A stretch of DNA of 64,000 nucleotides. Source: Halorubrum salinum. Its GTDB lineage: Archaea > Halobacteriota > Halobacteria > Halobacteriales > Haloferacaceae. The stretch covers positions 1 through 64,000 of the forward strand of contig NZ_JANHDO010000006.1 of the NCBI RefSeq assembly GCF_024494575.1, in the 5' to 3' direction. The notes below the pieces were generated by a model. The model had not been told where the DNA came from. It ran no database searches and was given only the letters and a program-made list of their open reading frames with translations. The position numbers and the translations under genes are program-made. Of this stretch, positions 535 through 52,706 are shown in pieces. Positions within the stretch are counted from its first letter, which is position 1. Every line of letters starts with the position of its first letter.

Positions 535-693
535 ACTGTTTTTAATAGGCTCGGAGTCATTTATAATTCCGGTAGCGTCGATCGGTGCACCGTGTTCCGT
601 CTGTACTGATCCGAGGGTCTCGTCCACATAATCTGTTACTACATCTGATAATTGGTGGAGGTGTTTCTTATGTTAGTCTATCTTTAACAAGGT

Positions 694-2289
694 ATGGCTA
701 ATCGACAACCATCGGACGAATTCAAGGTTAACGATCAAAATAGACGGACGGTAGACGGGGGCCGGCTTACAGAGCAGATCGGCATCGACAGTCGGGAAAT
801 TGAGTGGCGGAAAGACTTTACGCGGTTCGACTCAGATGACGTTGAGCGGCTGAACAGGCTTGAACCGCTGCTCAACGACATCGCGGACGACCTCGTCGAG
901 GACTTTTACGCACACCTCCAGAACTACTCCGAGTCGATGGCGATTATTGACTCGTCGACGAAGTCAGTCGAGGCGTTAAAACGGAGTCAAGCCGAGTATC
1001 TCAAAGACCTCGGACGCGGGCAGTACGATCAGTCGTACTTCGACAGCCGCGCTCGGATCGGAAAGATCCACGATATGCTCGATTTGGGTCCGAGAGTGTA
1101 CTTCGGGGCGTATTCGATCTACTACGAAGGCATTTTTGAGGCTATCGCCGAGGACATCAAGGACCGAGCTGTCCAGACTGATGGGGGTGCTGTTGCCCGC
1201 GATGGGTCGGCAGCCCGCCCGGCTGAGGGGTCACCCTCTGAGAGTTCAGACGACGGTGCGCCGATAACGTCTGTAGAGGCGGCCGTCGACGAGACCATCG
1301 AGCAGGCGCTATCGGCACTCAAGATCATTAACCTCGACCAGCAGGTCGCGATGGATACGTACATCCAGTCGTACAGCTCGCAAATTGAGTCGGAACTGGA
1401 GCGGCAGCGATCGGTCGCTGGGAACGTGGATTCATCCGTCGAGGAACTGCGCAACTCGACGAATCAGGTCGCGGAGAGTACTCAAGAGATCACCGACATC
1501 GCGACCGAACAGGTCGAAAATATGGAACAGGTCGCAAGTGAGGTGTCTAATCTAAGTGCGACTGTCGAAGAGGTCGCCTCAACCGCCGACGAAGTGGCAT
1601 CTACGAGTGCCGAAGCTGAATCCCATGCCATCGATGGGCGAGACTCGGCTGAGGAGGCGATGGATACCATGGAGGATGTCGCCGCCGCTACCAAGGCCGT
1701 CGCCGACGATGTCGACCAGCTCCAGGAGCGGATCGACGAGATCGACAACATCGTCGAGATCATCGACGATATCGCCGATCAAACCAACTTACTTGCGCTG
1801 AACGCATCTATTGAAGCCGCCCGGGCGGGCGACGCCGGATCTGGGTTCGCCGTCGTTGCCGATGAAGTAAAGTCTCTAGCAGAAGAATCGCAGGAGCAGG
1901 CCGGCCAGATCGAAAACACGGTGAGCACTATCCAAGCCGATACGAAGGAAACGGTGTCGAGCCTGAATGAGGTAACCGATCAGGTGGACGACGGCGTTGA
2001 GAGCGTTGACTCTGCGATGAACAACCTCGAAGAAATTGCCGACGCTGTCACAGATGCCGCCCAAGGAATCGATGAGGTCGCCAGAGCAACCGATGACCAA
2101 GCGGCCAGTACCGAAGAGGTTTCACAGATGGTCGATGACACACTCGTGCAGTCCCGTGAAGTCAGTACTGAGATTGCGGATGTCGCAGCAGCCAACGAAC
2201 GTCAGGCAGAGCGGGTCGAAGAGATCTCTGTCACTGTGGAAGACCTCGTTGAAAACGGAATGGAAACGCGAACAGGTGCGGACCGATGA
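694..2289 (+). CDS. HemAT-like globin-coupled methyl-accepting transducer
   Basis: This 531-residue soluble aerotaxis-type receptor should bind haem and oxygen and signal to CheA. Residues about 35-160 form a sensor globin: the [23 protein letters not shown] block gives a proximal histidine at about residue 126, and a globin-like helix pattern precedes it. An acidic linker (about 160-200) leads to a long coiled-coil signalling domain. Its conserved hairpin tip, with the [14 protein letters not shown] motif, lies at about residues 365-385. There is no transmembrane segment, as expected for HemAT. The stop codon overlaps the ATG of the next gene (ATGA at 2286), so the two are translationally coupled. 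The ATG sits close to the expected transcription start and no Shine-Dalgarno is visible, so the message is probably leaderless. A decayed relative lies at 16105-16712. Confidence 0.88.
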
Positions 2290-2549
2290 GCGGTCATCCA
2301 CTGCGTGGCGAGCTCGCAGCTGCTTTTGACCGGGCGTCCTATCCACTCGTGTCTCCATTCGACCTAATTCCTGCGCTGCCAGACGGCCCAGAAACAGTGT
2401 TCGAAGCCGACGGTATCCGGGTTCCGGCGGTTGACATCGGACTTGTCCACGGCCACCACCTCGCCTTTCCTTACCGGTCAGCGGATGCACTGGTTGACGA
2501 TGTCATGGCGGCGCTGCGTGCGGATAACGTTCTTCCTTCCAGGGCCTGA
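2286..2549 (+). CDS. MTH865-family small protein
   Basis: This 87-residue protein starts at the ATGA overlap with the globin-coupled transducer. It shows the pattern I associate with the MTH865 family (PF07747): an [15 protein letters not shown] helix, a P[19 protein letters not shown] block and a C-terminal [18 protein letters not shown] helix. The family's biochemical role is unknown. In haloarchaea, members often sit as short single-domain genes. The translational overlap suggests it is made together with the oxygen sensor, but a functional link is inference only. The length matches the family. Confidence 0.7.
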
Positions 2550-2712
2550 ATACGTCTCCTATCGGCTATTTTGTGAGAAGTCGCGTGCCTATTTGAAGTA
2601 ACATCTTCGCTGCGATCGATGTTTGAGCCCCCAATATCTCACTCACGTCAGCGATCCTTTGGACTGGAGGTCCAACCGGGTATATTATCAGATTGCATAT
2701 TTGGGCCTATGG

Positions 2713-2723
2713 TTATATATATA
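2713..2723 (+). promoter_or_regulatory. TATA box for the kinase-KaiC operon
   Basis: The AT-rich run TTATATATATA stands out from its surroundings. It lies about 50 bases upstream of the in-frame ATG at 2769, so transcription starting some 25-30 bases downstream would give a leader of about 20-30 bases. It falls inside the longest possible reading frame from 2619, which argues that the first 50 codons of that frame are not translated. Confidence 0.5.
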
Positions 2724-2768
2724 CTCGTCTATAATTATGAATGTCTACCACGTAATGTGGGACCATTT

Positions 2769-5114
2769 ATGAATAGACTTCCTCCGACAAGGCGTAATTC
2801 GGAAGCATCCATAGCGTCTCAGTCGGATTCCGTGCAGATTGGGCTACTTCTCGCTCAGCAAGCCAATAATGCGCGCTTGACCGACTGGTTATCTTCAGTA
2901 TATGATGTCGTTCAAGTAGATAGCCAGTCCCTCGTTCAGTCGAACTGTGACCTTTATATTGTAGATGAACTAATGCTGGAAAGACATTACTCCCGGCTCC
3001 GTCAACTCAAAGACAAATCGAACTCGGTCTTTCTCCCTTACCTTTTGCTTTCGACTACCTCGGATTCTCATCCGAATAATCAAGCGGTGTGGGATCTTGT
3101 GGATGAGATTATTTCTATGCCGACTCAAAAGCGGGCACTCTCCCATCGGCTTGTTAATCTCCTCCAACGACGCGACCTCTCGGTGGACCTTTCAACGGAG
3201 GCGGAACAGCAGCGTGATTTGTTCCGCAATATGTTTGAGTCTTCGAATGACGCAGTTTTTATTATTGATCCTGAATCCGAAGAGATCCGCGAATGTAATC
3301 CTCAAGCCTGTGAACTGCTTGGATATTCCAAAGACGAACTCCGTTCGTCTTCTCCGGATCTCATTCACCCTGACGTGAAATCAGAATTTTGGACGTTCGT
3401 CGACAGTGTTATTGAAAATGGTCGTGGGTATACCACAGAATTAACTTGCCGAACCAAAGGCGATAAGCAAATCAGGGCTGAAATCTCTGCCTCTGCGCTC
3501 CATGTCGATGGGCAGCCTCATTTCCTCGCCAGTGTTCGCGACGTCACGACCCGCTACGAGCAGCGACAGGTGCTCAAGCGGCTCCCTACCGTGACAGCTG
3601 ACATGATGGAGGCTCCGACAAAACATGAGGTTGCGGAGGTAGCGGTAGCCGCCGCAAAACACGTCTTCGGATACAATATCGCAGGTGTCCGGCTTTTAAA
3701 TACGGAGTCGACGCCAGAAACCCTCGATCTCGTGGCTGCAACCTCCGAAACATTCGAACTCTTAGAGGCCACACCAACCGTCTATGAACGTGGTGAGAGC
3801 GTAGTTGGGGGGGTCTTCGAGAGGCAAGAATCGATTTCTCTCAGTAATATTCAATCGAGTGAGACGCCATTCGGATACAAGCCTATACGGAGCGTGATGT
3901 GTTTTCCTCTCGGTGCTCACGGCGTGGTGAGTATCGGAGCAACAGAGTCTGCTGCATTCCGCGATGCGGATGTCGAATTGATGGGACTCTTGGCTGCGAC
4001 CACGACCGCCGCACTCACACGAGCCGAGCGTGAAGAATCACTGAGCGAACAGACAGAGTATTTCAGGGCCCTCTTTGAGAACGCGACTGATGCTATTGCG
4101 GATGTCAAATTTGAGAATGGTGGTCCCTATATTCAAGATGTTAATCCGGAATTTGAACGGGTATTCGGCTGTGAGAGGGCTACTGTCCGTGGAAACTCAC
4201 TCACTGAGCTCGTTGCCCCACCAAATGAGGAGGGGGCATCTCAGTCGCTTATCGCTCGCGCGTTTGTAGACGGGCGTACTACTGTCGACACTGAAGGGCG
4301 TCGTGAGACAGCAACCGGCCAGCGAGACTTCCTCATCCGTGTCGTTCCGATTCAACAGAACGACGAACACCTTGGTGCCTACGTCGTATATACGGATATC
4401 ACTGAGCAGAAACGGCGTGACCAGCAGCTCCAGGTCCTCAATCGTGTTCTTCGACACAACATTCGGAACAAACTGAATATTGTCCGTGGAGCCGTTGAGT
4501 GGTCACTTGATCATGAGCGCAATGTGCCAACGCCTCTCGCAGAGAGCGGGTTGGACGCTATAAACGAACTCCTTGATTTAAGCGAATCAGCTCGGACCCT
4601 TTTGAGCAAGACCAATTCGGAACAGAATCTCAAACCCGTCCCGATTGTCGATCTGATCGAGCGACCGGTGAGGTCACTTCGAGAACAGTATCCAGATGCA
4701 GACATCTCGACGGCGATTGAGACCGACGAGTGGCTGTCCGGCTCCGTTCAATTAGACCGTGCGCTGAAGGAGCTATGTGAAAACGCTATCACACATTCCA
4801 CTCAGGCGTCACCTGTAGTGGCCATTACAGCAGAACCAATAAAAAACAGAACAGATTGGGTGGAAATTACTGTCGAAGATAACGGTCCAGGGATCCCTGA
4901 CGCACAGCAAGCTGTGCTCCAGAAAGGAGAAGAGACTCAACTCCAGCACGGAAACGGACTGGGCCTCTGGACTGTTCACTGGATCGTCACCACCGCCGGT
5001 GGGGATCTCACGCTCTCGAACCGTGACGGTCCAGGAGCAACTGTAACGCTCAGGCTGCCTACTGTCGGCCCAGACTACTGTCTACAAGACGATCATTCGG
5101 AGACACCAGTATGA
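2769..5114 (+). CDS. Sensor histidine kinase: pseudo-receiver, PAS, GAF, PAS, kinase
   Basis: This 781-residue cytosolic kinase is the first gene of a chained operon. Domains in order: a receiver-like fold at about 20-130, PAS at 150-265, GAF at 280-410, PAS at 425-540, the phosphoacceptor helix with RVLRHNIRNKLNIV (histidine near residue 563), and an ATPase domain with ELCENAITHS (N box), DNGPGIP and GNGLGLW. The receiver-like part lacks the acidic pair and the switch lysine, so it is probably not phosphorylated. The frame stays open back to 2619, but those extra 50 codons contain the TATA box and have atypical composition, so I start at 2769. The stop overlaps the regulator start as ATGA. 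The sensed signal is unknown. Confidence 0.85.
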   Translation: MNRLPPTRRNSEASIASQSDSVQIGLLLAQQANNARLTDWLSSVYDVVQVDSQSLVQSNCDLYIVDELMLERHYSRLRQLKDKSNSVFLPYLLLSTTSDSHPNNQAVWDLVDEIISMPTQKRALSHRLVNLLQRRDLSVDLSTEAEQQRDLFRNMFESSNDAVFIIDPESEEIRECNPQACELLGYSKDELRSSSPDLIHPDVKSEFWTFVDSVIENGRGYTTELTCRTKGDKQIRAEISASALHVDGQPHFLASVRDVTTRYEQRQVLKRLPTVTADMMEAPTKHEVAEVAVAAAKHVFGYNIAGVRLLNTESTPETLDLVAATSETFELLEATPTVYERGESVVGGVFERQESISLSNIQSSETPFGYKPIRSVMCFPLGAHGVVSIGATESAAFRDADVELMGLLAATTTAALTRAEREESLSEQTEYFRALFENATDAIADVKFENGGPYIQDVNPEFERVFGCERATVRGNSLTELVAPPNEEGASQSLIARAFVDGRTTVDTEGRRETATGQRDFLIRVVPIQQNDEHLGAYVVYTDITEQKRRDQQLQVLNRVLRHNIRNKLNIVRGAVEWSLDHERNVPTPLAESGLDAINELLDLSESARTLLSKTNSEQNLKPVPIVDLIERPVRSLREQYPDADISTAIETDEWLSGSVQLDRALKELCENAITHSTQASPVVAITAEPIKNRTDWVEITVEDNGPGIPDAQQAVLQKGEETQLQHGNGLGLWTVHWIVTTAGGDLTLSNRDGPGATVTLRLPTVGPDYCLQDDHSETPV

Positions 5115-5713
5115 CAGAACTGAGTCAGACGCCGGAACGCGAACCGCCCACAATCCTTGTCGTTGAGGACGAGCGAGGATTGGCTGACCTATTTGCTCTC
5201 TATCTCGAAGATGAGTATACCACCCGAGTTGCATACGGTGGTGAAGAGGCCCTTGACCTCATCGACGGCGACGTAGATGCTGTGTTACTTGACCGGCGGA
5301 TGCCGGGACTTTCTGGTGATGAGACACTCGCTACACTTCGTGAGCGTGGACATGACCAACCCATTTCGATGCTTACCGCCGTTGATCCAGAAGAGGATAT
5401 CATCGGGCTAGATATTGACGAATATTTAATAAAACCGATTTCCGAGGTACAGCTTCAAGAGGCCGCCGAAGCACTCCTTGCGCGAAGACGGTACGATAAA
5501 GAGTTCCGCGAATACTTCGCCGCGATCTCAAAGAAGGCTGCTCTGGATGCCTCTATGAGCGAACAGGAACGCGCATCAAGTGACGCATATAACACATTAG
5601 AGGAGGAGGTGACGGAGGCAACAGATACAGCCGATTCTACGCTCACGGAGATGATGGCGACAGACGCGTTCGCCGGATCCCGATTCGCTGATATTTCAGA
5701 CCAACACTTATGA
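5111..5713 (+). CDS. HalX-type response regulator
   Basis: This 200-residue protein has an N-terminal receiver with the acidic pair at E19-D20, a phosphoacceptor aspartate at about residue 61 (VLLDRRMPG) and a switch lysine near 108 (EYLIKPIS). The C-terminal 75 residues, starting with RRRYDKEFREYFAAISKKAAL, match the haloarchaeal HalX helical domain, which accompanies receivers that lack a DNA-binding domain. It starts at an ATGA overlap with the upstream kinase, which is its likely phosphodonor, and ends at an ATGA overlap with a 28-codon micro-ORF. Output probably passes through protein contacts with the HalOD1 or KaiC-like products of the same operon; that is inference. Confidence 0.88.
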   Translation: MTELSQTPEREPPTILVVEDERGLADLFALYLEDEYTTRVAYGGEEALDLIDGDVDAVLLDRRMPGLSGDETLATLRERGHDQPISMLTAVDPEEDIIGLDIDEYLIKPISEVQLQEAAEALLARRRYDKEFREYFAAISKKAALDASMSEQERASSDAYNTLEEEVTEATDTADSTLTEMMATDAFAGSRFADISDQHL

Positions 5714-5796
5714 CAACTAACGCTACAACTCAGCCGAGAGCGAGCAACTCTGGGCGTACTCGACAGTGGACGACACAGTGGGACAGCGCCGTATGA
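5710..5796 (+). CDS. 28-residue micro-ORF linking response regulator and HalOD1 gene
   Basis: An ATG at 5710 overlaps the response-regulator stop (ATGA). The frame runs 28 codons and stops at a TGA overlapping the only ATG of the HalOD1 gene (ATGA at 5793). The predicted peptide is polar and Thr/Arg rich with two tryptophans near its end (RQWTTQW). I recognise no family. Every other junction in this operon is also ATGA, which makes the micro-ORF a plausible translated coupling peptide. Its main role may be to carry ribosomes across the 79-base gap. It could instead be a relic of a longer HalOD1 N-terminus. Confidence 0.45.
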   Translation: MTTNATTQPRASNSGRTRQWTTQWDSAV

Positions 5797-6167
5797 ACGA
5801 CAGTCTCTCTATTCTTAGTAGTGATTTTGGTCCGGATTCGACGATTGACGTGCCACAGGGGAAAATTAAATACGACTCGTCACTGGAGGCGTATCGGCTC
5901 AAACACGACTGGTCGACGCACGATTCGCTCAGTGTCTCGGTATTTGCGGTCATAGAAGCCGCATCGACGGGTTCGACAGACGAACTGCCGCCGTTGCTCG
6001 AACGTATCGACCCGGATGCACTGGACTGCCTTTTTGCCCCGACCACGTCGGGGGCGTCGAGAGTGCACGGACAGATAGCATTCCCATACGCAGGCTTCCA
6101 TGTGACTATTGCTGCGGACGGAACGATCACAGTCCAACAGAGTACCACAGCGGATGACACTTCATGA
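5793..6167 (+). CDS. HalOD1 output-domain protein
   Basis: This 124-residue protein has a single HalOD1 domain at about residues 30-105, recognised by the run of helix then VIEAASTGSTDELPPLLERI, the DPDALDCLF turn, and the strand pair VHGQIAFPYAGFHVTIAADGTITV. HalOD1 is a haloarchaeal output domain of unknown activity that is usually found near two-component genes. An alternative GTG at 5766 would add nine residues. The ATG at 5793 is preferred because it overlaps the micro-ORF stop and already gives a complete domain. The TGA overlaps the KaiC-like ATG at 6164. Confidence 0.78.
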   Translation: MNDSLSILSSDFGPDSTIDVPQGKIKYDSSLEAYRLKHDWSTHDSLSVSVFAVIEAASTGSTDELPPLLERIDPDALDCLFAPTTSGASRVHGQIAFPYAGFHVTIAADGTITVQQSTTADDTS

Positions 6168-7666
6168 CAGACAATTCAGAACCAGACTCAATACCAGAGA
6201 CCGTACAGACCTTTGACCGTATTTCAACCGGTATTCGTGGCCTCGATACCATTCTGAATGGTGGGCTTATTCCCGAACGAAGTTATCTCGTTCGAGGGCG
6301 GCCAGGCACCGGCAAGACAATTCTGGGATTGCATTATCTCACGCAAGGAACAGAACAGAGCGAAACATCGTTGTTCATCAATCTTGAGGAAACAACGGCG
6401 GATATCGAACAGAATGCAGCCGCCCTTGGCTTCGATGTCGAGAACGTTCATTTTCTCGATCTGAGCCCAAAGTCGGAGTTTTTCGCCGCCGATCAGGGTT
6501 ACGATATCTTCGAATCTAGCGAGGTCGAACGCGATCCGCTCGTGGAAAAAATCACCGAACAGGTATCGACAATTGAACCGGATCGCGTGTTTGTCGATCC
6601 GATCAGCCAGCTCCGATACCTCTCGACCGATCAGTACCAGTTCCGCAAGCAGGCACTCTCCTTTATGCGACTACTGGGCGAGGCAGGTGCGACCGTCCTG
6701 TTCACGACGCAGGCCACCGAGGATGCTCCGGACGACGATCTGCAGTTTATGAGTGACGGAATGATAGAACTCGGATACGCGTCGACTGGTCGATCGATCA
6801 GCGTACCGAAATTCCGCGGTTCAGCGACTCGGAGCGGGGACCACGCGGTGAAGATCACTGATACCGGACTCGCCGTGTATCCAGAACTCGCTCCAGGAGA
6901 CTACGAACAGGAATTCGTGGATGAACCCATCTCCGCAGGTGTTCCAGAAGTCGACCAACTACTTAATGGTGGGCTGGATCGGGGTACAGTGACCGTTATC
7001 TCCGGGCCAACTGGGGTCGGGAAGACGACGACCGGCACGCAGTTCATGAAAGAAGCAGCGGGCCGAGGCGAACGTTCAGTGATGTATCTCTTCGAGGAAA
7101 CGACGGGCACCTTTATGCGGCGATCTGAGGCAGTCAATATCCCCGTCGCGGAGATGCGGGACCGAGGGACACTCACTGTCGAAGAGATCGAGGCTTTAGA
7201 GATCTCACCCCAGGAGTTCGCCAATATGGTCCGCCAGGAAGTCGAAGAACAAGGGGCTGAAATTGTGATGATCGATGGGATCGCGGGCTACAAGCTTGCC
7301 TTAGAAGGCGAAGAAGGCGAGCTTGTTTCTCATCTCCACTCTCTCGGTCGGTATCTTAAAAATATGGGTGTGACTGTTATTATGATCGAAGAGATTACTA
7401 ATATCACAGGAGAATTTCAGGCGACTGATGTTGGGATAAGCTACCTCGCAGACAATATTGTCTTTCTTCGGCATCTCGAAGTTCAGGGTGAGATGCGAAA
7501 AGTTATTGGCGTCCTGAAAATGCGTACCAGCGACTTCGAACGGACATTACGGGGGTTCAAAATCACCGAGCACGGAATTACAGTCGGCGAACCACTAACA
7601 CAGCTCCGAGGGATTCTCAGTGGCACGCCGGAATGGACTGATGAGTCAGACACGACTGACCAATAA
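6164..7666 (+). CDS. KaiC/RAD55-like double ATPase
   Basis: This 500-residue protein has two RecA-fold KaiC domains in tandem. The first has a Walker A motif GRPGTGKT at about 45-52, the paired catalytic glutamates in FINLEETT near 76-77, and a Walker B-like segment RVFVDPISQ. The second has GPTGVGKT at about 281-288, YLFEETTG, and a Walker B IVMIDGIAGY. The size is close to that of cyanobacterial KaiC (about 520). No kaiA or kaiB is visible. In archaea such proteins are thought to act as ATP-dependent signalling switches rather than a full clock. The gene is coupled by ATGA to HalOD1 and followed after about ten bases by another kinase, so the operon encodes kinase, regulator, output domain, ATPase and kinase together. 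Confidence 0.88.
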   Translation: MTDNSEPDSIPETVQTFDRISTGIRGLDTILNGGLIPERSYLVRGRPGTGKTILGLHYLTQGTEQSETSLFINLEETTADIEQNAAALGFDVENVHFLDLSPKSEFFAADQGYDIFESSEVERDPLVEKITEQVSTIEPDRVFVDPISQLRYLSTDQYQFRKQALSFMRLLGEAGATVLFTTQATEDAPDDDLQFMSDGMIELGYASTGRSISVPKFRGSATRSGDHAVKITDTGLAVYPELAPGDYEQEFVDEPISAGVPEVDQLLNGGLDRGTVTVISGPTGVGKTTTGTQFMKEAAGRGERSVMYLFEETTGTFMRRSEAVNIPVAEMRDRGTLTVEEIEALEISPQEFANMVRQEVEEQGAEIVMIDGIAGYKLALEGEEGELVSHLHSLGRYLKNMGVTVIMIEEITNITGEFQATDVGISYLADNIVFLRHLEVQGEMRKVIGVLKMRTSDFERTLRGFKITEHGITVGEPLTQLRGILSGTPEWTDESDTTDQ

Positions 7667-7677
7667 TTCCCACCGTG

Positions 7678-9096
7678 ATGGAATCTTCGAACAAAGACCA
7701 CGATCACCGACCGACACTCCTCCTGCTGATCCAAAGCGACCGGAATCGCGAATTACTTGCTGAGCAGCTTGAGCCGGAATACACCGTTCAGACTCACACC
7801 GATACACCGTTTGCAGATTCCGACTTCGATCTGTGTCTGGTCGATACTCGCTCGTTCGAGAGATTTGAGGACGAGCTTCAAAAAGTGCAAACTGTAACTG
7901 CACCGACGTTCTTACCGGTGCTTTTGCTTACTGGTGACAGGTCACCGGATCAGTTCACCGGTACCACTTGGGATATTGTTGATGAACTGATTCAACGACC
8001 GGTCAGTAGGGCCGAATTAAACGCACGGATCGATAACCTTCTGCAACGCCGCCAGTTGTCGCTCGAACTCACACGGCAGAAAGAGCAGAGTGACAGGCGA
8101 TTTGAATCGCTATTCCAGTCCACCCCGGATCCAGTTGTGGTAGTGAAACCGGATGGAACAGTCACCGAGGCAAACGATGCTTTTGTCGAGGCGTTCGGCT
8201 TCGACACCGAATCATTAGCAGATCGACCAATCTCTGACTTCGAATTCACGCCATCAGAGCTACTGGAGCGGGTTCTCGTAAAAATCGATGACGATGATAC
8301 GACGACAACAGTTCAGTGGCAACGCGATGGGGAGAACCCCCAAGTGATGGAATTAAACACAGAAGCTATTTCCGGGCTTGGTAAAGCTGCCGAGCGAATC
8401 GGGATATTCAGAGACGTCACGGAGAGGGCGAAACGCGAAGAGGAACTCGCAGGACAGAACGAACGGCTTCAGGAATTCGCCGGCACGGTTGCTCACGACC
8501 TACGGAACCCGCTCAACGTCGCGACTGGCCGGCTTGAACTGGCACGAAAGACAGGGGATGTCGAACATTTCGAAGCGATCGACCAGTCTCACGAGCGCAT
8601 GAAAGAAATGATCGATGAACTCCTGTCGCTCGCGAAACAAGGGCAAGCAGTTCTTGATCCGAACGCAGTCACGCTCTCTGAGATTACCACACAAGCGTGG
8701 GAGCACGTTGAAACAGCAGATGCCACGCTCGAAATTGATGTCGACACGTCGGTTGTCATACTAGCGGACGAAGGACGATTGTGTGAACTCTTCGAGAATC
8801 TCTTTCGAAATGCGATTGAACATAGTAAGGAGCGTGTCACCGTTACTTTCGGTACTCTTGACGATGACACGGGGTTCTACGTGGAAGACGACGGGCCCGG
8901 GATAGCTGCTAACGAACGTGACGAGGTGTTTGAAGTGGGATACACTGATGCCGAGGAGGGTACCGGATTCGGACTCTCGATTGTCCAACAGATTGTTGAT
9001 GGACACGAATGGGAAATCGCTATCACAGAGGGGACTAGGGACGGAGCACGATTTGAGATTCGCAACGTTGATATCGACCGCATCCCGCAAGAATAG
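7678..9096 (+). CDS. Sensor histidine kinase: pseudo-receiver, PAS, kinase
   Basis: This 472-residue cytosolic kinase closes the KaiC operon. A receiver-like fold at about 10-125 resembles that of the kinase at 2769 (shared TWDIVDE/VWDLVDE and NLLQRR motifs) and lacks the switch lysine (QRPVS instead of KP). A PAS domain at 135-245 and a HisKA domain with VAHDLRNPLNVA follow (histidine near residue 272). The ATPase domain carries LFENLFRNAIEHS, DDGPGIA and GTGFGLSIV. A GTG at 7675 directly precedes the ATG at 7678, and either could initiate. The lysine loss suggests the domain is a protein-interaction module, perhaps for the neighbouring KaiC-like protein. Confidence 0.85.
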   Translation: MESSNKDHDHRPTLLLLIQSDRNRELLAEQLEPEYTVQTHTDTPFADSDFDLCLVDTRSFERFEDELQKVQTVTAPTFLPVLLLTGDRSPDQFTGTTWDIVDELIQRPVSRAELNARIDNLLQRRQLSLELTRQKEQSDRRFESLFQSTPDPVVVVKPDGTVTEANDAFVEAFGFDTESLADRPISDFEFTPSELLERVLVKIDDDDTTTTVQWQRDGENPQVMELNTEAISGLGKAAERIGIFRDVTERAKREEELAGQNERLQEFAGTVAHDLRNPLNVATGRLELARKTGDVEHFEAIDQSHERMKEMIDELLSLAKQGQAVLDPNAVTLSEITTQAWEHVETADATLEIDVDTSVVILADEGRLCELFENLFRNAIEHSKERVTVTFGTLDDDTGFYVEDDGPGIAANERDEVFEVGYTDAEEGTGFGLSIVQQIVDGHEWEIAITEGTRDGARFEIRNVDIDRIPQE

Positions 9097-9274
9097 AAGT
9101 CAGCTCGACACTATATTGTGCTGATCCTTGAGAAGAGACAGTAACTGTAGTCCGCATATTTTTGAGACACCGATCAATACGCATCGGGTTCCGCTCCCCT
9201 ACGTGGCAGCCGAACCTCGATAATTCTGGTCCCGAATGTTAGGTTGTCGAATCGGGGCACTACGGAAACTCAAA

Positions 9275-11178: not shown

Positions 11179-12423
11179 CTACTCGCTCACGGCTGACGCC
11201 GTTCGCTCCTTGAGGGTAGGGCTTCCTGTTTCCACGACGCGCTTTACAGACACCGAATCGGTGTCCGTAGGGAGCGCAGTCTCCACAGGCGTTGATTCGG
11301 AGTGTCCCACTCCTATGTCTTCGAGACCGCGAGAAAGGATGTTCCACGCCGCGTTCGCGTCCCTGTCCGCCTCAAACCCGCAGGCGGGACAGGAGTGTTC
11401 ACAGACCCACAACGGCTTCTCCGTCAAAACACCACACGACGCGCACTCTTTCGTCGTACCGCGCGGATCCACGGCGACGAAGTACGTTCCCTCTCGCTTG
11501 CACTTGTACTCGAGCAACGAGAGGAACGTCCGCCATGCTGCCGACGCGGTGTTGCGGCTGTTCGACGGCGACTCCATCATCCCCTTCACGTTCAGGTCTT
11601 CGACCGCCACGAGGTCGTACTCCCGAGCGTAGTAGTTCGAGAGTTTATGGAGAAAATCACGGCGCTTCCGTCGGAGATCGGCGTGACACTCTGCGACGCG
11701 ACGCCGTTGCTTCTCGTAGTTGTTCGACCCGTGTTGCTTCCGCGAGAGTTTCCGTTGCTCACGCTCCAAGCGTTCACGCTCGTCGGAGAGATCGAGCGAC
11801 TCGACCGCCGTGCCGTCGGTGTCGTGGGCGTACTTGAGAATCCCCACGTCAATTCCGACGCACTTCTCGGGATTTTCGGTGGGTTCGGACGGTTCACGGT
11901 CGATTTGGACGCCGAACGTGGCGAACCACTCGCCCGTCGGCTCCTTCTTGACCGTGACCTGCTTGAGGTTGGCGTCGTCGGGGATGTTGCGGTGGAGTCG
12001 CATCGGAATGTCCGCGAGTTTCGAGAGTGACAGCACAGTCTGACCGCCCTTCTTGTCGAGCTTGAAGCCAGACTGGTTGTACGTGAAACTCCGGAACTCC
12101 CGTGGCGGCTTCCACTTGAGTTGACCGACGCCGTAGCCGTTCTCCTTGAGCGTGGAGAGGCTGTTGAGGTTGTCGAACAGCCGTTCCACGACGGTTTGGA
12201 GCACCTTCGAGTACACGTCGGAGAGGTCGTCCCACCACTCCTTGAGGGTGGGGAGTTCTGACCGAAGCGTGGTCATGGACGGCAGTTCGGCGTGTTCATC
12301 TTGGTACTCGTTAAGCCGATAGAGCGTGTGATTGTACAGTTGCCGACAAATATCGCGGTGGCGGTCCAACTCCTCACGGTGGGCGTCGGACGGCTTGAGG
12401 CGATACTTGTAGGCGTAGTACAT
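11179..12423 (-). CDS. tnpB: TnpB RNA-guided nuclease of IS200/IS605 element
   Basis: This 414-residue protein is of normal TnpB length. The RuvC-like active site is complete: the first aspartate in CVGIDVGILKYA, the glutamate in VAVEDLNVKGM, and the last aspartate in EADRDANAAWNIL. The zinc finger CASCGVLTEKPLWVCEHSCPAC supplies paired CxxC motifs. The N-terminus YKYRLKPSDAHREEL is the usual HTH entry of the family. The start is the ATG at 12423, overlapping the tnpA stop as TGATG; the longer upstream reading belongs to tnpA. TnpB proteins use an RNA from the element's right end to cut the donor or empty site and aid retention. Here that RNA would overlap the tnpB 3' end. Confidence 0.9.
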   Translation of the reverse strand: MYYAYKYRLKPSDAHREELDRHRDICRQLYNHTLYRLNEYQDEHAELPSMTTLRSELPTLKEWWDDLSDVYSKVLQTVVERLFDNLNSLSTLKENGYGVGQLKWKPPREFRSFTYNQSGFKLDKKGGQTVLSLSKLADIPMRLHRNIPDDANLKQVTVKKEPTGEWFATFGVQIDREPSEPTENPEKCVGIDVGILKYAHDTDGTAVESLDLSDERERLEREQRKLSRKQHGSNNYEKQRRRVAECHADLRRKRRDFLHKLSNYYAREYDLVAVEDLNVKGMMESPSNSRNTASAAWRTFLSLLEYKCKREGTYFVAVDPRGTTKECASCGVLTEKPLWVCEHSCPACGFEADRDANAAWNILSRGLEDIGVGHSESTPVETALPTDTDSVSVKRVVETGSPTLKERTASAVSE

Positions 12424-12839
12424 CAGCTCTCCCGCTGGTCTTCGACATACTGTTTCAGCACATCCAGCGACACCTGCCCCGTCGAAATGAGGCAGTAGGA
12501 GTCGTTCCAGAACGAGTCGCCCCACAGTTCGGTCTTCAGCTCATCCTCGTACTCGTTGCGGATACGGCGAGCAGTCGCGCCCTTGACTGTATTAATGAAC
12601 TTCACGAGGTCCGTGGTTGGTTTCGCTCGGAACAGGATGTGTACGTGGTCGTCCTCTCCGTCGAGGTTCGTCAGTTCGACGCCGTAGTTGTCCGTGAACC
12701 CGCTGATGACCTCGTGAATGAATTGGGTTCGCTCCTCGGTTAGCACTCCGCGCCGATACTTCGTGGTGAGTATCAGGTGGTAGTGTAGGGAATACGTCGA
12801 GTGCGCTCCCGAATCGAGGTCGTACTCCATTAGGTTCAT
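12423..12839 (-). CDS. tnpA: TnpA Y1 HUH transposase of IS200/IS605 element
   Basis: This 138-residue protein has the IS200-type transposase pattern: the strand HYHLILTTKYRR, the metal-binding HUH motif as DHVHILF, and a C-terminal helix LKQYVEDQ that carries the catalytic tyrosine. It acts as a single-strand DNA nickase that recognises the subterminal hairpins. The ATG at 12839 is used because the longer open frame begins with TTG. The gene overlaps tnpB by one base at the stop-start junction, as is common in haloarchaeal members. Confidence 0.9.
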   Translation of the reverse strand: MNLMEYDLDSGAHSTYSLHYHLILTTKYRRGVLTEERTQFIHEVISGFTDNYGVELTNLDGEDDHVHILFRAKPTTDLVKFINTVKGATARRIRNEYEDELKTELWGDSFWNDSYCLISTGQVSLDVLKQYVEDQRES

Positions 12840-12934
12840 ACTGTAATACAATATCCAAATGTAAAATCATTACGACGGCGTTGGCCTGCGGGCCTGTAAC
12901 CGTATCGCCATATGAACAGGTGATGACGGCGTTG

Positions 12935-20297: not shown

Positions 20298-21899
20298 TCA
20301 GGACCCACTCCCGGAAACTGTCCGGTCGTCTCCACCCGTATTGCCCGTGCTGTCGACTGCGGTCACGACGATCCGGTATTCGTCGACGCGGTCGCCACCG
20401 GCTGCGGTGAGTCGCTCAGCCGCGCTGTCGGACCCGCCACCCACGCTCGCTGTTACCGAATCGATGACTGTTCCTGTGTCCGGGTCCCGAAGTGCAAACT
20501 CGATGCGATCGAGGTCGTCGTCTGGGTCGATCGCGTCGACGCTTACCTGGAAGCGATCCTGTGCGCCCGCCGTGTTCGCGTCGACGTTCGTGATCGTCAC
20601 CGTTGGAGCCGTCCCGTTTCCGCTGCCGTTACTTCCGGACCCATCGATATCCATCACGCGAACTGAGAAGGTGACTTCCTGTCGTGGTTGTCCCCCGCCG
20701 CCGAAGGCAAGCGTCGCGGTCACGTCTTGGCTCTCGTCGACAGTTTCGGGAGCCTCGTACACGAAGGTTGCCTGACCGCCGGTGCCGGTGGTGGCGTCAA
20801 CGGGGCGAAGACTGCCATCACCGTCCACGCTTCCAGTGACCGTGACCCCGCTGACGGGGTTATCGAAGCGATCGCGAGCTTGGACGACGAGTTTCTGACT
20901 CCCGGTTTCGGGGATCGCAGTCGCGTTCCCTGCGATGTCGGTGAGATACGTCGCGGGGGGTTCGGGAACCCCGCCGGCAACAGCGACGGCAGCAAGCTGG
21001 AGTTCGTACGTCGCGCCCGGCTCGAGCGTGAGTGTGAGCCGGCCACACGGCGCCGGCGGTGCCTGTGTGCAGTCGATGCTCGTCACGTACCGATCGTTGT
21101 CCGGGTCGCCGGCCGGATCGAGTTCCGCGGCGAGGAGGTCCTCCCACTCGTCTTCGGTGAGTTCCGTCGGAATCGTTATGCGCATCGGGTCGCCGTCGGC
21201 TCGAACGGTTACCGTGCGGGCCGGCGCACTCGTCGGTTCGATCCCAATCGAGAGGCGGTCCGTTCGGGACGTGGTGCGTTCTCCACGAAGCGTCGTCAGC
21301 GTGAGGCGGCGACCATCGACGAGATCTTGCTCGGTGACTGCCAGTCGAGCGTCCTCGAAGCGGTTGTACACGACCCACGGTTCGACGACCGTGTCCGGGG
21401 CGTTGGCGTACTCGTTGTAGCTCGGCGCGTACACGACCGCCCGCGTCTCAAACGACGTCCCCGACCCGTCCCAGTAGTCGGCCGTCTCACCCGTCGCGCG
21501 GGCGTTGTCGATCTCGATGGTCGCGGTGTCGGTCGTCCGGACGGTCCCGCTGGCAGGCGGCGGATTGATGAAGAACATTCGCGGCGGGTAGCGGAGCCCG
21601 GCGCTGACCGACGCCGTTTCATCGGACCCCGTCGCCGCGACCCCCTCGATGACCGTGGCGAGGTCGGCCATCTCGTCTTGAGCCTGCTCGTTGTGCTGGA
21701 ATTCGAGCTGTTCGTTGAGTGCGGGCACCGCCGTCGTCTGGAGGATGGCCAGCAACGCGAGCACTAAAGCGAACATCAGGATTGCGCCGATAACCGGTGA
21801 GACGGCACGGTCGGCAGCCCGGAGTGTCCGACGGTCGGTGCGACAATTCGTAGACCGTGGTGGCTGCGAGCGCCGAGGTGAAGTGGATGAGTCAGACAT
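20298..21899 (-). CDS. Large pilin-like surface protein with Ig-like domains
   Basis: This 533-residue protein carries the archaeal type IV pilin signal at about residues 28-60: a charged segment, AVSPVIGAILM, then a hydrophobic helix (FALVLALLAILQTTAVPAL). A following stretch, YPPRMFFINPPPASG, recalls a haloarchaeal pilin-associated family. Most pilins are 120-200 residues, so this is unusually long. Residues about 320-420 look like a Big_1-type Ig fold (LVVQARDRFDNPVSGVTVTG). The last 110 residues resemble another Ig-like or cadherin-like strand repeat with a Gly/Ser-rich linker (GSGSNGSGNG). It starts two bases after pilC stops, so it is the third gene of the operon. It is probably a pilus tip or adhesin. 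Confidence 0.75.
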   Translation of the reverse strand: MSDSSTSPRRSQPPRSTNCRTDRRTLRAADRAVSPVIGAILMFALVLALLAILQTTAVPALNEQLEFQHNEQAQDEMADLATVIEGVAATGSDETASVSAGLRYPPRMFFINPPPASGTVRTTDTATIEIDNARATGETADYWDGSGTSFETRAVVYAPSYNEYANAPDTVVEPWVVYNRFEDARLAVTEQDLVDGRRLTLTTLRGERTTSRTDRLSIGIEPTSAPARTVTVRADGDPMRITIPTELTEDEWEDLLAAELDPAGDPDNDRYVTSIDCTQAPPAPCGRLTLTLEPGATYELQLAAVAVAGGVPEPPATYLTDIAGNATAIPETGSQKLVVQARDRFDNPVSGVTVTGSVDGDGSLRPVDATTGTGGQATFVYEAPETVDESQDVTATLAFGGGGQPRQEVTFSVRVMDIDGSGSNGSGNGTAPTVTITNVDANTAGAQDRFQVSVDAIDPDDDLDRIEFALRDPDTGTVIDSVTASVGGGSDSAAERLTAAGGDRVDEYRIVVTAVDSTGNTGGDDRTVSGSGS

Positions 21900-21901
21900 G
21901 G

Positions 21902-24130
21902 TTACACCAGGAGGAAGAACACCACGATCGTGAGCAGGACAAGTGCCAATCCGTATTTTAGCCCGCTAAGAGCGTCATTTTCGGCGAGTTTCCCCGCGAT
22001 GAGCCCGCTCCCGAAGCCCTGGATCAGTGCCGAATGCAGGAACAACAGTCGATAGGTCTCGACCGGAATTGCCCCCAGCGACACCGCTCCCTGCCCGCCA
22101 CTGCCCTCGGAGCTGGCTGCGATCTCGGCGATCGGCGCGAGGTAACTCGCACTCACCATGACGATGACCAGCAGGTAGACGAGAAACCCGACGACGACGA
22201 TGGCGACGTACGAGCCGACTTCACGGCGGCGGGCCCGGGCCAACTTCTCTCGGGATCGCGTATCGGTGGCCGCGATCTCAACCAGGCCGGCGATATCGCC
22301 GCTCGACCGACTCCCCTCGGCAATCAGCGTCATCGTCCGGCTCAGCTGTGGCACGTTCAGTCGGTCGGCGAAATCCAGGAGTGCCCGTGTCAGATCGTGG
22401 TTCCAGGCGATGTCGTTTCGAACCTTCTCGAGTTCGGTGGCGAGCGTCCCGCTGGCCCACCGTGTCACCAACTCGAAGGCGTCGACGATGTCGACGCCCA
22501 TCTGGTTCGCACTCGCAAGGATGTTCAACACATCGGGGAACCGCTCGGTGATTGTCTGTGTTCGGCGGCGTTCGCGCTCGTGGAGTACCATCACCGGTGC
22601 CGTCGTTGCGATCAGCGGTCCGACGACGAGCCCGACCGTCGTCCGAAGCGGCGTGGCGAGGAATCCCGAGACACTGGGTGACACAATTCCCGTCCAGATG
22701 GCGACCCCCACGACTGCGCCACCGAGCGGGATCGTGATCCCAAGCGAGAGCGAGGGTCGCCGCCGGATCGCCCGGAAGGGATCGGCCAGAAACGCCCGGA
22801 AGGGATCGGCCAGAAACGCCCGGAGTCCGGTCTCCCGTTTCGTCCGCTGGTAGGCCGGGAAGCGGGGATCGTCCGCGACTTGCTCGGTGGCAATCATCCG
22901 CTCGTCCTCGATCGATAGGTTCGCAGTCGGTTCCTCGTAGGGGCGCGAGAGCAGGTCGACGACGAGTAGGAAGCCGCCCATCGCCAGCGGGAAGACGAGA
23001 TACACGAGCGCGGCGATGATGTCGACGGTGTCGGCGCCGAGAAAGCTCACGACCATCAACACGACGATGAGAAACAGCGGTGCGGCGACGAACCCGATGA
23101 CGAACACCTCGCTCAGCCCGCCGAGCGTGTCGATGAACGACTCCTGTTCTTCGAGTGCGCTGTCGAGGTATTCCTCGGCTTCCTCCTCGAGGAACGTCTC
23201 GAGATCACCGCCGGATTCGAGCACCCCGAGGAGGTCGTCGAGGAACCGCCGCAGGTCGTCGCTCGGCGTCAGCTGTCGGAGGTTACTGAGCGCCTGCAAG
23301 AGGTCGTTGCCGAACAGGTCGATTTCTCGGACAACGACATCGAACTCGTTGGCAACCTCGCCGTACACTTGGTCGTTGTCGCCGAGCCGTCGACAGATCT
23401 CGTCAAAGGTCATCCCACCGCTGGAGAGGGCGTACATAAACGTGATCGCATACGGCAGGTTCAGCGAGATACTTCGCCGGCGAGCGGCGACGACGCTCCG
23501 TGGATAGTAGTAGTTGCGTCCCGCCCAGACAACTCCGGCGGTGGTGAGGGAAAACAACAATGGCACGAGGAGCGCGGCACCAATCAGCGGGTTGGCAACA
23601 ACAACGCCCCGAAGCGGTCCTGTGGCACCCAAGAGTGGTTCGAGGACGTCGAGTCCCGTTGTCAGCGCGATCCCTGCCACGAGGGCGTTAGCGACGATCC
23701 CTGCGACGAACCCAGCGACCACCGCAGCTTTGATGCTATCTGTCAGGTACTCGTCGTAGGTGTCCCTGACACGCGCCTGTTTGAGGCGTCGCTGGAGGCC
23801 TCGATAGCGGGTGGGCCGGGCTTTGAAAAACGCCCTGACGTATCCGTAGGCCTCACGGAGCGTCGCCTGTTCAGCCTCGCCGAGCTCGCGCTCTTCGGTG
23901 AGTGGGTCGCTGATCGCTTCTTCCGGCTCCGGTTCTGGTTCGGACTCTGCAGTGTCATCTGTCTCCTCTTGGGCGGTGTCGGTCGCGGGTTTGGCGGCGT
24001 CGTGGCTTCCGTCGTCGAAGGCATCGTCGATAACGGCTTCAGCGGTCGCCTCGTCGAGTCCAGGCTCACGGAAGGCTGGGTCGGTGGCCTCGGGCGAGGA
24101 GTCAGTCTCCGAACGGTCGTGTCCGGTCAC
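21902..24130 (-). CDS. pilC: PilC/TadC-like pilus membrane platform protein
   Basis: This 742-residue integral membrane protein has two type II secretion F (T2SSF) domains. The first centres on the helical segment ALSSGGMTFDEICRRLGD at about residue 235 and the second on SANQMGVDIVDAFELVTRW at about 545. Each is followed by hydrophobic helices (for example FVIGFVAAPLFLIVVLMVV and YVAIVVVGFLVYLLVIVMV). An acidic N-terminus of about 110 residues is cytoplasmic. Between the two halves is a tandem 24-bp duplication that repeats FRAFLADP. The gene lies three bases after pilB, and the pilin gene follows after two bases, so it is an operon for archaeal type IV pilus assembly. Confidence 0.88.
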   Translation of the reverse strand: MTGHDRSETDSSPEATDPAFREPGLDEATAEAVIDDAFDDGSHDAAKPATDTAQEETDDTAESEPEPEPEEAISDPLTEERELGEAEQATLREAYGYVRAFFKARPTRYRGLQRRLKQARVRDTYDEYLTDSIKAAVVAGFVAGIVANALVAGIALTTGLDVLEPLLGATGPLRGVVVANPLIGAALLVPLLFSLTTAGVVWAGRNYYYPRSVVAARRRSISLNLPYAITFMYALSSGGMTFDEICRRLGDNDQVYGEVANEFDVVVREIDLFGNDLLQALSNLRQLTPSDDLRRFLDDLLGVLESGGDLETFLEEEAEEYLDSALEEQESFIDTLGGLSEVFVIGFVAAPLFLIVVLMVVSFLGADTVDIIAALVYLVFPLAMGGFLLVVDLLSRPYEEPTANLSIEDERMIATEQVADDPRFPAYQRTKRETGLRAFLADPFRAFLADPFRAIRRRPSLSLGITIPLGGAVVGVAIWTGIVSPSVSGFLATPLRTTVGLVVGPLIATTAPVMVLHERERRRTQTITERFPDVLNILASANQMGVDIVDAFELVTRWASGTLATELEKVRNDIAWNHDLTRALLDFADRLNVPQLSRTMTLIAEGSRSSGDIAGLVEIAATDTRSREKLARARRREVGSYVAIVVVGFLVYLLVIVMVSASYLAPIAEIAASSEGSGGQGAVSLGAIPVETYRLLFLHSALIQGFGSGLIAGKLAENDALSGLKYGLALVLLTIVVFFLLV
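22771..22818. repeat. 24-bp tandem duplication inside pilC
   Basis: Two perfect 24-bp units (22771-22794 and 22795-22818) are followed by six bases of a third. The unit is in frame and duplicates an eight-residue FRAFLADP segment in the loop between the two membrane domains. Because it is a multiple of three it keeps the gene open, and the unit number could vary by slippage. Confidence 0.9.
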
Positions 24131-24133
24131 GGC

Positions 24134-25966
24134 TCAATCGTCGTCCTCCATAACCGCGATATCGTCAGGATCGAGTTCCCCAGCCCGCACCTCGTCAAGA
24201 ATATACTGTCGATCTCGAATGAATCCCTGTATCACCTGGGCGACGTCCTCGTAGGCGGTGATCTCCTCTGTGAGAAGATAGTCGAGTACCTCTTCGCGTC
24301 GGTCCAGCGCGGTTTCGATTCGCCCCGGCGTCCAGCCCCGCTCGTCGGCAATCTGCCCGAGGACGTTCGAGCTGTTCTCCTGGCTGAACGTGTCCGTGCT
24401 CGGGTCTCGACGGAACACGTCGTGTGTTTTGACGCTGGTCGGGTCGTCGGGATCACGGGCTAACTCAACGAGTCCCCGGTTCCGTCGGACGCGCGTCCCG
24501 TCTTGGGTCGTCTGTTGCTGGATCGAGACGATATCGAGATTGCTCAGCATCTGTGCCGGGACGTTCAACGGTTCGTTCTCCAGTCGGCTCAACAGCCCTT
24601 GGACCGAGTCAGCGTGGAATGTGGTGTAGGCTGTGTGCCCGGTCGCAATCGACTGGAAGAACGTGAGTGCAACTTCGGGTTCCGTGCGGATTTCACCGAC
24701 GACGAGGTATTCGGGACGCTGGCGCAGCGCCGATTGCAGGAGATCGAACATCCCGACCGAGCCGCGGCCGCCGGCCGTCACGCCTTCGCGAGTCACGTTC
24801 TGGATCCAGTTGTCGTGCGGGAGCGTGATCTCGGGGGTGTCCTCGATGGAGACGACCTTGCTCTCCGGCGGGACGAACATCGAGACTGCGTTGAGACTCG
24901 TCGTCTTGCCCGATCCGGTGCCGCCAGCGAACAACAGCGAGGCGTTGTTTTCGACGGCGACCCAGAGATACGCCATCTGTTCGAGCGAGAACGTCCCCCA
25001 GTTGATGAGGTCGATAGGCGTGAACGGCACCTCCGCGAACTTCCGCACCGTGAAGTTCGATCCCTTTGTCGTGACTTCCCCGCCGAGCGTTAACTGCACG
25101 CGGGATCCGTCTGGGAGCGACGCGTCGACGAGCGGGTCGGCGACTGAGAGGTGTTTGCCAGCCCGCTGGGCTAGTCGGACGACGTACGCACTCAGGCGCT
25201 CTTCGCTGAAGGTGAGGTTCGTCCGCAGGTCGCGGTAGCCGTGATGGTAGACGAACACCGGCATCCCCGTGCCGTCACAGGAGATGTCCTCGATGTGGCG
25301 ATCGCGCATAATCGGGTCGATCTTGCCGTAGTTCACGAAGTCGCGTCGCAGATAGTAGAGCAACTGCTGGAGAGAGCCGTCCGCGATCGTCGCGGCGTGC
25401 TCCTCCATCACGCGGGGCACCTCCGCGTCAAAGACGGCTGCGCGATCGCTGGTGTCCTCGAACTCCTTGTACATCAGATCGCTTCGGAGGGCCCGGATGA
25501 GATCCTCGCGGACGTACTCCTCGAACTCGTCGAGGTCGGGTTCGATCACATGGTAGCGGTTCGTGTTGGTGTCCTCGTCGTAGAGAATCGTGGCGTACGC
25601 AAACGGTCGGTTCACCCAGTACCGCTCGACCTCCTCGTACTCGTCGAGATAGCTAAAATCGAAAAATTCCTGATCGATGAATTCCTCGGATGGGCGCCCC
25701 GGATAGGCGTCCTCGGCAAGCTGCTCAAACGAGGTTTTGACCGCCTCAAGAATCGCATCGCGAATCTCCCCTTTCGAGTCGGGTTCGGTCGGGGCGATTG
25801 CTGACGACTGTTCGGTCGCGTCGTCCGCCTCAACTGGCTCGACACTACTCTCCTGAGCAGTCGCCGTCTTCGGGTCAGTCGAGAGCGAGGTAGTTTCGTC
25901 GTCGGCATCAGGGACGATGGACTCCATTGCCTCGCCTTGATGTCCCGGATCCTGACTGTCACGCAT
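24134..25966 (-). CDS. pilB: PilB/TadA-like pilus assembly ATPase
   Basis: This 610-residue hexameric secretion ATPase of the VirB11/GspE class energises pilus assembly from the cytoplasm. The Walker A motif AGGTGSGKTTS lies near residues 346-355 and the Walker B-type motif EYLVVGEIRTEPE near 420. The His-box TTFHADS follows, then FQSIATGHTAYT. The acidic N-terminal 130 residues are variable, as in haloarchaeal PilB paralogues. An in-frame ATG at 25927 is an alternative start. It is the first gene of a minus-strand trio, with pilC three bases downstream. The prepilin peptidase is not in this window. Confidence 0.9.
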   Translation of the reverse strand: MRDSQDPGHQGEAMESIVPDADDETTSLSTDPKTATAQESSVEPVEADDATEQSSAIAPTEPDSKGEIRDAILEAVKTSFEQLAEDAYPGRPSEEFIDQEFFDFSYLDEYEEVERYWVNRPFAYATILYDEDTNTNRYHVIEPDLDEFEEYVREDLIRALRSDLMYKEFEDTSDRAAVFDAEVPRVMEEHAATIADGSLQQLLYYLRRDFVNYGKIDPIMRDRHIEDISCDGTGMPVFVYHHGYRDLRTNLTFSEERLSAYVVRLAQRAGKHLSVADPLVDASLPDGSRVQLTLGGEVTTKGSNFTVRKFAEVPFTPIDLINWGTFSLEQMAYLWVAVENNASLLFAGGTGSGKTTSLNAVSMFVPPESKVVSIEDTPEITLPHDNWIQNVTREGVTAGGRGSVGMFDLLQSALRQRPEYLVVGEIRTEPEVALTFFQSIATGHTAYTTFHADSVQGLLSRLENEPLNVPAQMLSNLDIVSIQQQTTQDGTRVRRNRGLVELARDPDDPTSVKTHDVFRRDPSTDTFSQENSSNVLGQIADERGWTPGRIETALDRREEVLDYLLTEEITAYEDVAQVIQGFIRDRQYILDEVRAGELDPDDIAVMEDDD

Positions 25967-51020: not shown

Positions 51021-52706
51021 ATGCAGCATAGTTTCAATCCGGATCCGGTGAAGTGCCGGGATCTGTTTGATGGAGAGGAGGACCTATACCAAATTCCTCG
51101 ATATCAGCGACCGTATAGCTGGGAGAAATCGCATATTGAGCAGTTGATTGATGACCTCTACGACTCGTGGAGTGCGGACCGAAACAGTCCCTACTACTTG
51201 GGCTCGGTTATTTTGGTGAAGGAGGACGGTGATTCTCGTTTTGACATATTGGATGGACAGCAGAGGATGACTTCTCTCATCATTCTCTATGCAATCTTCA
51301 ACGACCATTTTCACGATCACTTGAGCGATATGAACAAGAGAAGGGTCGAGGAAAGAGTCCATGAACAGGCGTTGGAGAGGCCTCGGTTGAGAACCAGTAA
51401 GCAAACTGATCTTGAACAGTCAGTACTCAAATCGATAGACCTAGACGAGAAAAACAGGTACACTGAGGCTGCTGAAATCCTGATAGATTGTCTGGAGACC
51501 AAGTTCGGAGATCGACATGACGAACTCAACGACTTCTTTGAGTTCATCGATCAGAATATCGAACTGATTAGAATCATCAGCGATGATCTTGCACATGCCG
51601 TCAGGCTTTTCCAGACCATCAATACTCGTGGGAAAGATTTGACGGTCTCTGACCTCACCAAGAGCTATCTGCTTAGCAATTTGGAAAATGATGAAGACAA
51701 GGACGATGTAATTGAGGTCTGGCAGGAAATCACTACGAAGGTTGATGATGACTATGATACCTTGGACAGCATCCTTGGAATGTATCGGCTGTATCTTCAA
51801 CAGTCAAAAGCACAGGAAACGAGGTATCAGGAGCTAAAATCCGAGTTTGAAGGACAGAACCCTAAGAAGATTGTCAAAGACATTCGGGACTTCGTGGACA
51901 ACTACAAACAGATCGAAAACTCAGGCTCGAAAGAAATCTTCATCCTGGAAAACTTGTCACATACTCTGTATTGGAAGACGATTCTTATCGGCGCCAAGAA
52001 AGACGGTGTTGACTACTTCGACGAGTTGCGTGACGAGCTTATCGGGTTCTACTATTCGTACTGGATTGGAGACTATACCAGTGAAAAAATCAAGATACCC
52101 TCGATCAAGATTCTGACTCTGCTGCGTGATGAGGCCAGTTTGGAGGTGATCCAGGAGTATATCGAGAGTAAGAGGAAGCGTGATAATATTCCGGAACGGG
52201 TTCGAGACGGACTGTATTCTGATAATGTATATGGAGATGAAAAGTGGCACAAGAGCCTGCTGATTGCTATTGAATACAGCCTGAGTGACTCACAGAAAGT
52301 TGAGCGGATTAAGAAGAGAGGCGGTGGAATGCACATAGAACACGTACTTCCCAAGTCGTACGGTTCTGCAATGGAAAAATACGATTACTGGGAAGACAAT
52401 TTCAGTAGAGAGGAGGCAAGTCAGCTGAGAAACACGCTTGGGAATTTGATTCCTCTACAGTACGATCTCAATGCAAAGGCGGCCCAGAAGCCATTCGATG
52501 AGAAAGCTGCTATCTATCAGGGGAAGCGGGGTAAACCGCGTTCAAGTTTCGACCTAGCACTGCGAGTAGCTCGCGGAGACTATGGTGATTGGTCTCCAGA
52601 AGCAATTGAGGCACACCGCGATTACTTGATTAAGAAGTCTGCTTACTTGTTGAACCTGCCTGCCGATTCAATCCTAGTTGAGGATAATTCAGGGGATTCA
52701 GAGTAG
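51021..52706 (+). CDS. DUF262/DUF1524 GmrSD-like defence nuclease
   Basis: This 561-residue protein has an N-terminal DUF262 (ParB-like) domain: LYQIPRYQRPYSWEKSHIEQ at about 22-42 and ILDGQQRMTSL near 77-87. A helical middle follows. The C-terminal DUF1524 HNH-type nuclease has MHIEHVLPKSYG at about 437-448 and TLGNLIPLQYDLN near 475. This single-chain arrangement is that of GmrSD-type type IV restriction enzymes and related phage-defence proteins (SspE, BrxU class), which use NTP to cut modified DNA. Active-site residues look intact. Base use is clearly more AT-rich than in the signalling genes. The decayed tfb copy lies immediately 3'. Confidence 0.87.
   Translation: MQHSFNPDPVKCRDLFDGEEDLYQIPRYQRPYSWEKSHIEQLIDDLYDSWSADRNSPYYLGSVILVKEDGDSRFDILDGQQRMTSLIILYAIFNDHFHDHLSDMNKRRVEERVHEQALERPRLRTSKQTDLEQSVLKSIDLDEKNRYTEAAEILIDCLETKFGDRHDELNDFFEFIDQNIELIRIISDDLAHAVRLFQTINTRGKDLTVSDLTKSYLLSNLENDEDKDDVIEVWQEITTKVDDDYDTLDSILGMYRLYLQQSKAQETRYQELKSEFEGQNPKKIVKDIRDFVDNYKQIENSGSKEIFILENLSHTLYWKTILIGAKKDGVDYFDELRDELIGFYYSYWIGDYTSEKIKIPSIKILTLLRDEASLEVIQEYIESKRKRDNIPERVRDGLYSDNVYGDEKWHKSLLIAIEYSLSDSQKVERIKKRGGGMHIEHVLPKSYGSAMEKYDYWEDNFSREEASQLRNTLGNLIPLQYDLNAKAAQKPFDEKAAIYQGKRGKPRSSFDLALRVARGDYGDWSPEAIEAHRDYLIKKSAYLLNLPADSILVEDNSGDSE

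Follow-up and report, generated by a model that had tools for sequence, protein, structure and literature searches.

RpaA is absent from archaea and SasA is found in only two methanogen genera, according to the survey of Schmelling 2017 (PMC5520375), which held that archaeal KaiC must use an output pathway other than the cyanobacterial one. KaiC-like ATPases have been proposed to act as archaeal signalling hubs (Makarova 2017, as cited in PMC5847659); the pairing of KaiC with pseudo-receivers (PsRs) may already have been noted in that 2017 work. The HalX and HalOD1 domains were catalogued by Galperin 2018 (PMC5847659). In Haloferax volcanii, the double-domain KaiC gene cirC lies beside an Orc gene and the sensor-kinase gene fixL (PMC3941300). 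Mutants of the same species in ddfA (HalOD1) and in cirA (single-domain KaiC-like) are both blind to a density signal (PMC12240190); because cirA encodes a single-domain KaiC, the bearing of this result on the present operon is indirect. The PsR of CikA binds KaiB, and a 2025 review knew of no published functional study of any archaeal pseudo-receiver (PMC12632262 for both). The operon described here is a candidate for the missing archaeal KaiC signal output route.

Gene layout and domain content

The window (the whole stretch of DNA that was analysed) covers positions 1 to 64,000 of a 155-kb contig in a haloarchaeal genome of 2.73 Mb. A preliminary description had placed a kinase, a HalX regulator, a HalOD1 protein, a double KaiC and a second kinase on one strand, and ORF and Pfam scans bore out their order, strand and families. 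The features were as follows.

2712..2723 (+): TATA-box-like run, candidate operon promoter (consensus match only)
2769..5114 (+): kinase 1, 781 aa; domains PsR-PAS-GAF-PAS-kinase core, RHNIRN histidine box, HATPase (Pfam)
2820..3209 (+): PsR of kinase 1; retains the Asp, lacks the acidic pair and has Met in the Lys position
5111..5713 (+): REC-HalX response regulator (PF00072, 5e-17; PF08663 (HalX), 4.8e-15)
5710..5796 (+): 28-codon ORF between REC-HalX and HalOD1; both ends ATGA (5710, 5793)
5793..6167 (+): stand-alone HalOD1 protein, DdfA-family relative (Pfam, 2.5e-19)
6164..7666 (+): double-domain KaiC-like ATPase (PF06745 twice, 1.7e-78)
7412..7459 (+): KaiC CII loop EFQATDVGISYLADNI (by alignment to Synechococcus KaiC)
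7678..9096 (+): kinase 2, 472 aa, PsR-PAS-HisKA-HATPase (Pfam)
7690..8091 (+): PsR of kinase 2; modelled with a receiver fold (pLDDT 93)

The four ATGA overlaps described earlier are all present (5111, 5710, 5793 and 6164), but only two of them connect members of the five-gene set, at 5111 (kinase 1/REC-HalX) and at 6164 (HalOD1/KaiC). There is no overlap between KaiC and kinase 2: the KaiC stop codon ends at 7666 and kinase 2 starts with GTG at 7675 or ATG at 7678, leaving a gap of 8 or 11 bases. The 28-codon ORF was considered as a sixth gene and rejected; it had no Pfam match, and shuffled gaps in which both ATGA ends were kept reproduced such an ORF in 41% of cases. Judged from its sequence, it is probably not a gene. 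The TATA-like run is located ca. 45 bases 5' of the kinase 1 start and, because it precedes that gene, a single transcript from the 2712-2723 region that would cover the operon is plausible. The start at 2769 is plausible on the strength of the same run and because it yields 781 aa, the length at which the long kinase of Haloplanus GX21 is annotated. A sigma-70 promoter scan was set aside, as it does not apply to archaea.

Both kinases have a histidine box and a HATPase domain, and both open with the same domain of ca. 125 residues. Foldseek matches of its predicted fold were receivers, and profile comparison also matched receivers. Across the kinases the Asp is present in 96%, but neither the acidic pair nor the Lys is conserved, and on that account the domain was classified as a pseudo-receiver. 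In REC-HalX the residues of a functional receiver are retained: acidic pair, Asp, Thr, Lys. In KaiC, each half carries a Walker A motif and a catalytic Glu pair, conserved across 69 sequences. The protein was aligned to solved KaiC over 476 residues, and its T421, S426 and Y427, which are invariant (100% of the 69 sequences), align to T426, S431 and T432 of Synechococcus KaiC; Tyr at the T432 position is also known from some KaiC3 proteins (PMC5520375). The HalOD1 protein scored 69.7 against a Pfam cut-off of 26.3, and 67.8 bits against the DdfA family NF053557 of NCBIfam (cut-off 70). Its predicted structure was of middling confidence (pLDDT 75), and a structural search with this model returned no significant match.

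Two sets of neighbouring genes were considered as further members of the module and rejected. A HemAT-like protoglobin transducer gene in ATGA overlap with an MTH865-family gene lies upstream (694-2549, +); no counterpart of the pair adjoins KaiC loci, except that the transducer region of HemAT matches other proteins in two of them. A third kinase, at 9359, resembles other KaiC-adjacent kinases over its PAS and kinase domains, but the own-genome search gave it no PsR match. Elsewhere in the window, ORF translations revealed TnpA-like and TnpB-like ORFs of an IS200/IS605-type element (11179-12851, -) ca. 2 kb downstream of the operon. Genes for a PilB3-like ATPase and a type II/IV secretion F protein (20298-25966, -) are probably an archaeal pilus cluster, and a GmrSD-type restriction endonuclease with both domains matched is encoded at 51021-52706 (+). 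A megablast of positions 600-9100 against the plasmid collection gave zero matches.

Association of the pseudo-receiver with double-domain KaiC

The genome contains 54 HATPase matches and two double-domain KaiC genes. A single-sequence search with the kinase 2 PsR, which is free of profile bias, found the domain on only three kinases, all adjoining these KaiC genes: the two kinases of the operon and one next to the second double KaiC. One additional weak match was the REC domain of the window's REC-HalX. In the same genome, a further REC-HalX gene and a gene for a different KaiC-family ATPase lie ca. 0.5 kb apart on opposite strands (G000:C1:135733-137100).

A PsR profile search of 51 genomes yielded 65 matches. 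Of these, 56 were no more than 3.5 kb from a double KaiC and nine lay away from KaiC; 54 of 68 double KaiC genes had a PsR match nearby. These counts are not bias-free, since KaiC neighbours were the source of the profile, which makes further such neighbours easier to recover, and the genomes were mostly picked for their possession of KaiC. A binomial figure for this association takes no account of relatedness. Three of the ten genomes with no KaiC match carried a PsR match. In one (G206), the PsR kinase ends ca. 290 bases from a contig end, so a neighbour may be missing.

Neighbourhoods were then tabulated for 90 double-KaiC loci; three of these are alphaproteobacterial, one is cyanobacterial, and one record enters the count twice. 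Of the 90, 83 had a neighbour with a PsR or receiver-like domain and 65 a PsR kinase; REC-HalX was within 3.5 kb at 16 and HalOD1 at six. At nine loci the sole such neighbour was a stand-alone receiver-like domain. Two haloarchaeal loci had no PsR or receiver-like partner (L013 of Halobellus clavatus, and L084). The cyanobacterial locus, on the Acaryochloris plasmid pMB01, has a KaiC 49.5% identical to that of the window, flanked by two kinases with PsR-like domains; on two Rhizobium plasmids (L115, L119), KaiC overlaps a kinase gene with weak receiver-like matches at both ends.

The gene-order check proposed with the preliminary description was carried out: all five genes also occur together in Haloferax sulfurifontis (L014/L058), in Haloplanus GX21 and in Haloarcula SYNS111. 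These sister operons have the order HalX-HalOD1-KaiC-short kinase-long kinase; the long kinase is thus first in the window and at the 3' end in the others. Kinase 1 is ca. 30% identical to their long kinases over nearly its full length. The earlier suggestion of one complex of all five products was too broad, given the frequencies of HalX (16/90) and HalOD1 (6/90); the stable unit is KaiC plus the PsR kinase, and HalOD1 is an optional, lineage-restricted accessory.

The KaiC-PsR pairing persists across a change of strand, being divergent in the Halorubrum-type clade and co-directional elsewhere. Distances between KaiC proteins correlate with those between PsRs (Mantel r=0.71, n=65, p=0.0002) and less strongly with those between kinase catalytic cores (r=0.58, n=65). 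Within genomes, the PsR was closer to that of the nearest foreign KaiC than to that of the home paralogue in 24 of 24 comparisons, some with small margins and with reciprocal pairs that are not independent. The association of KaiC with the PsR kinase is well supported; adjacency and co-divergence are evidence of shared inheritance, not of binding.

REC-HalX distances follow those of the kinase core (r=0.85, n=16). In two loci from two genomes, REC-HalX adjoins a PsR kinase where KaiC is absent. HalX presence requires at least 11 changes on the KaiC tree. Adjacency and co-divergence suggest that REC-HalX is likely the partner of the kinase. Since ca. 80% of KaiC loci lack a nearby HalX, the output partner would often have to be encoded elsewhere or be a different one.

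Candidate signal flow and its alternatives

The reading preferred here, to which a probability of roughly 0.5 is given, is a KaiC-centred two-component module in which KaiC would bind the PsR and set the output of the kinase to REC-HalX. By analogy, the double KaiC would form a hexamer that hydrolyses ATP and probably autophosphorylates at S426/Y427. The PsRs of kinases 1 and 2 would dock on KaiC and read its nucleotide or phosphorylation state, and kinase 2 (and kinase 1) would hand phosphate to REC-HalX as the output. The operation would be like that of KaiC-SasA-RpaA, with the pseudo-receiver replacing the KaiB-like domain of SasA and with no KaiB; HalOD1 would be an added, lineage-specific regulator.

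The main rival is the reverse direction, in which the PAS/GAF kinases would sense signals and alter the ATPase or autophosphorylation of KaiC via the PsR, so that KaiC is the output and REC-HalX a side branch. The sensory domains on both kinases are in keeping with this flow, and the nine loci with only a stand-alone receiver-like domain would be accounted for by an action of that domain on KaiC. Yet the operon also encodes a REC-HalX that appears competent for phosphorylation and co-diverges with the kinase, and the reverse flow, which seems rather unlikely overall, is compatible with the same KaiC-PsR contact.

The genes might also travel as a mobile signalling cassette on plasmids, co-inherited but with no direct physical pathway among their products. 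Several copies are indeed plasmid-borne, and in the KaiC tree (FastTree, with local support values only) the window copy clusters, at 97, with Haloferax sulfurifontis, Haloplanus GX21 and three loci that lack HalX and HalOD1. The copies closest to it come from another genus and another family, and its nearest relatives are without HalX and HalOD1; the chromosomal KaiC of the same genome groups with Halorubrum. The closest relative, that of Halobellus clavatus L013 (76%), has zero partner genes within 3.5 kb. Against the cassette, the KaiC-PsR pairing is also seen on contigs of chromosome size, holds in different genera and is kept in either orientation, and PsR kinases are seldom found away from KaiC (9/65). 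The cassette is considered improbable.

The least probable account, and a very doubtful one, makes HalOD1 the main output of the KaiC complex in place of REC-HalX, with effects on cell shape and motility like those of DdfA: the ATGA overlap with KaiC here, the adjoining or overlapping position in the sister operons and the unresponsive ddfA and cirA mutants of H. volcanii (PMC12240190) favour it, but HalOD1 shows only a weak excess near KaiC loci (six of 90 within 3.5 kb; p about 0.015, relatedness ignored), HalOD1 together with HalX requires about 3 changes on the KaiC tree, and CirA is of the single-domain, not the double-domain, kind.

Comparison with described systems

Returning to the KaiC-centred module, the cyanobacterial KaiC-SasA-RpaA system likewise combines a response regulator with a kinase that has an adaptor domain at its N-terminus and with a double KaiC in which the catalytic and phosphosite positions are the same. 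It differs in that the adaptor of SasA has a KaiB-like thioredoxin fold at the N-terminus, whereas that of the operon has the receiver fold of a pseudo-receiver; the operon also has REC-HalX instead of RpaA and Tyr at the T432 position. KaiB, a component of the KaiABC circadian clock, was not detected: a search with PF07689 gave zero matches in the genome of the window and 19 relatives, with a control that recovered the Synechococcus protein. CikA likewise carries a pseudo-receiver on a clock-linked kinase, but the PsR of the operon is N-terminal, its Asp is kept and its expected partner is KaiC itself. Among proteins of solved structure, the PsR profile matched the second receiver of PleD best by sequence (2.2e-13). 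That receiver is a degenerate adaptor receiver that serves dimerisation, although PleD itself, unlike the kinases here, is a diguanylate cyclase response regulator.

Among haloarchaeal systems, the cirC-type locus is a close counterpart. A locus of H. sulfurifontis (L121) matches it, with an Orc1/Cdc6-like gene upstream of KaiC and a PsR kinase downstream, and from this gene context we infer that it is the cirC orthologue. Its KaiC is about 48-50% identical to that of the window, and neither HalX nor HalOD1 lies within 3.5 kb. The near-restriction of the PsR to double-KaiC neighbourhoods provides a concrete partner candidate, both for archaeal KaiC output and for archaeal PsR function. We tentatively suggest that haloarchaea, and possibly some bacteria, may use a KaiB-independent KaiC output, with a dedicated pseudo-receiver as the part of histidine kinases that reads KaiC; if true, a KaiC timer or energy sensor would there be linked to two-component signalling by a means other than that of SasA. 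The PsR candidate probably covers the cirC locus of H. volcanii as well, for which cirC deletion strains exist (PMC3941300).
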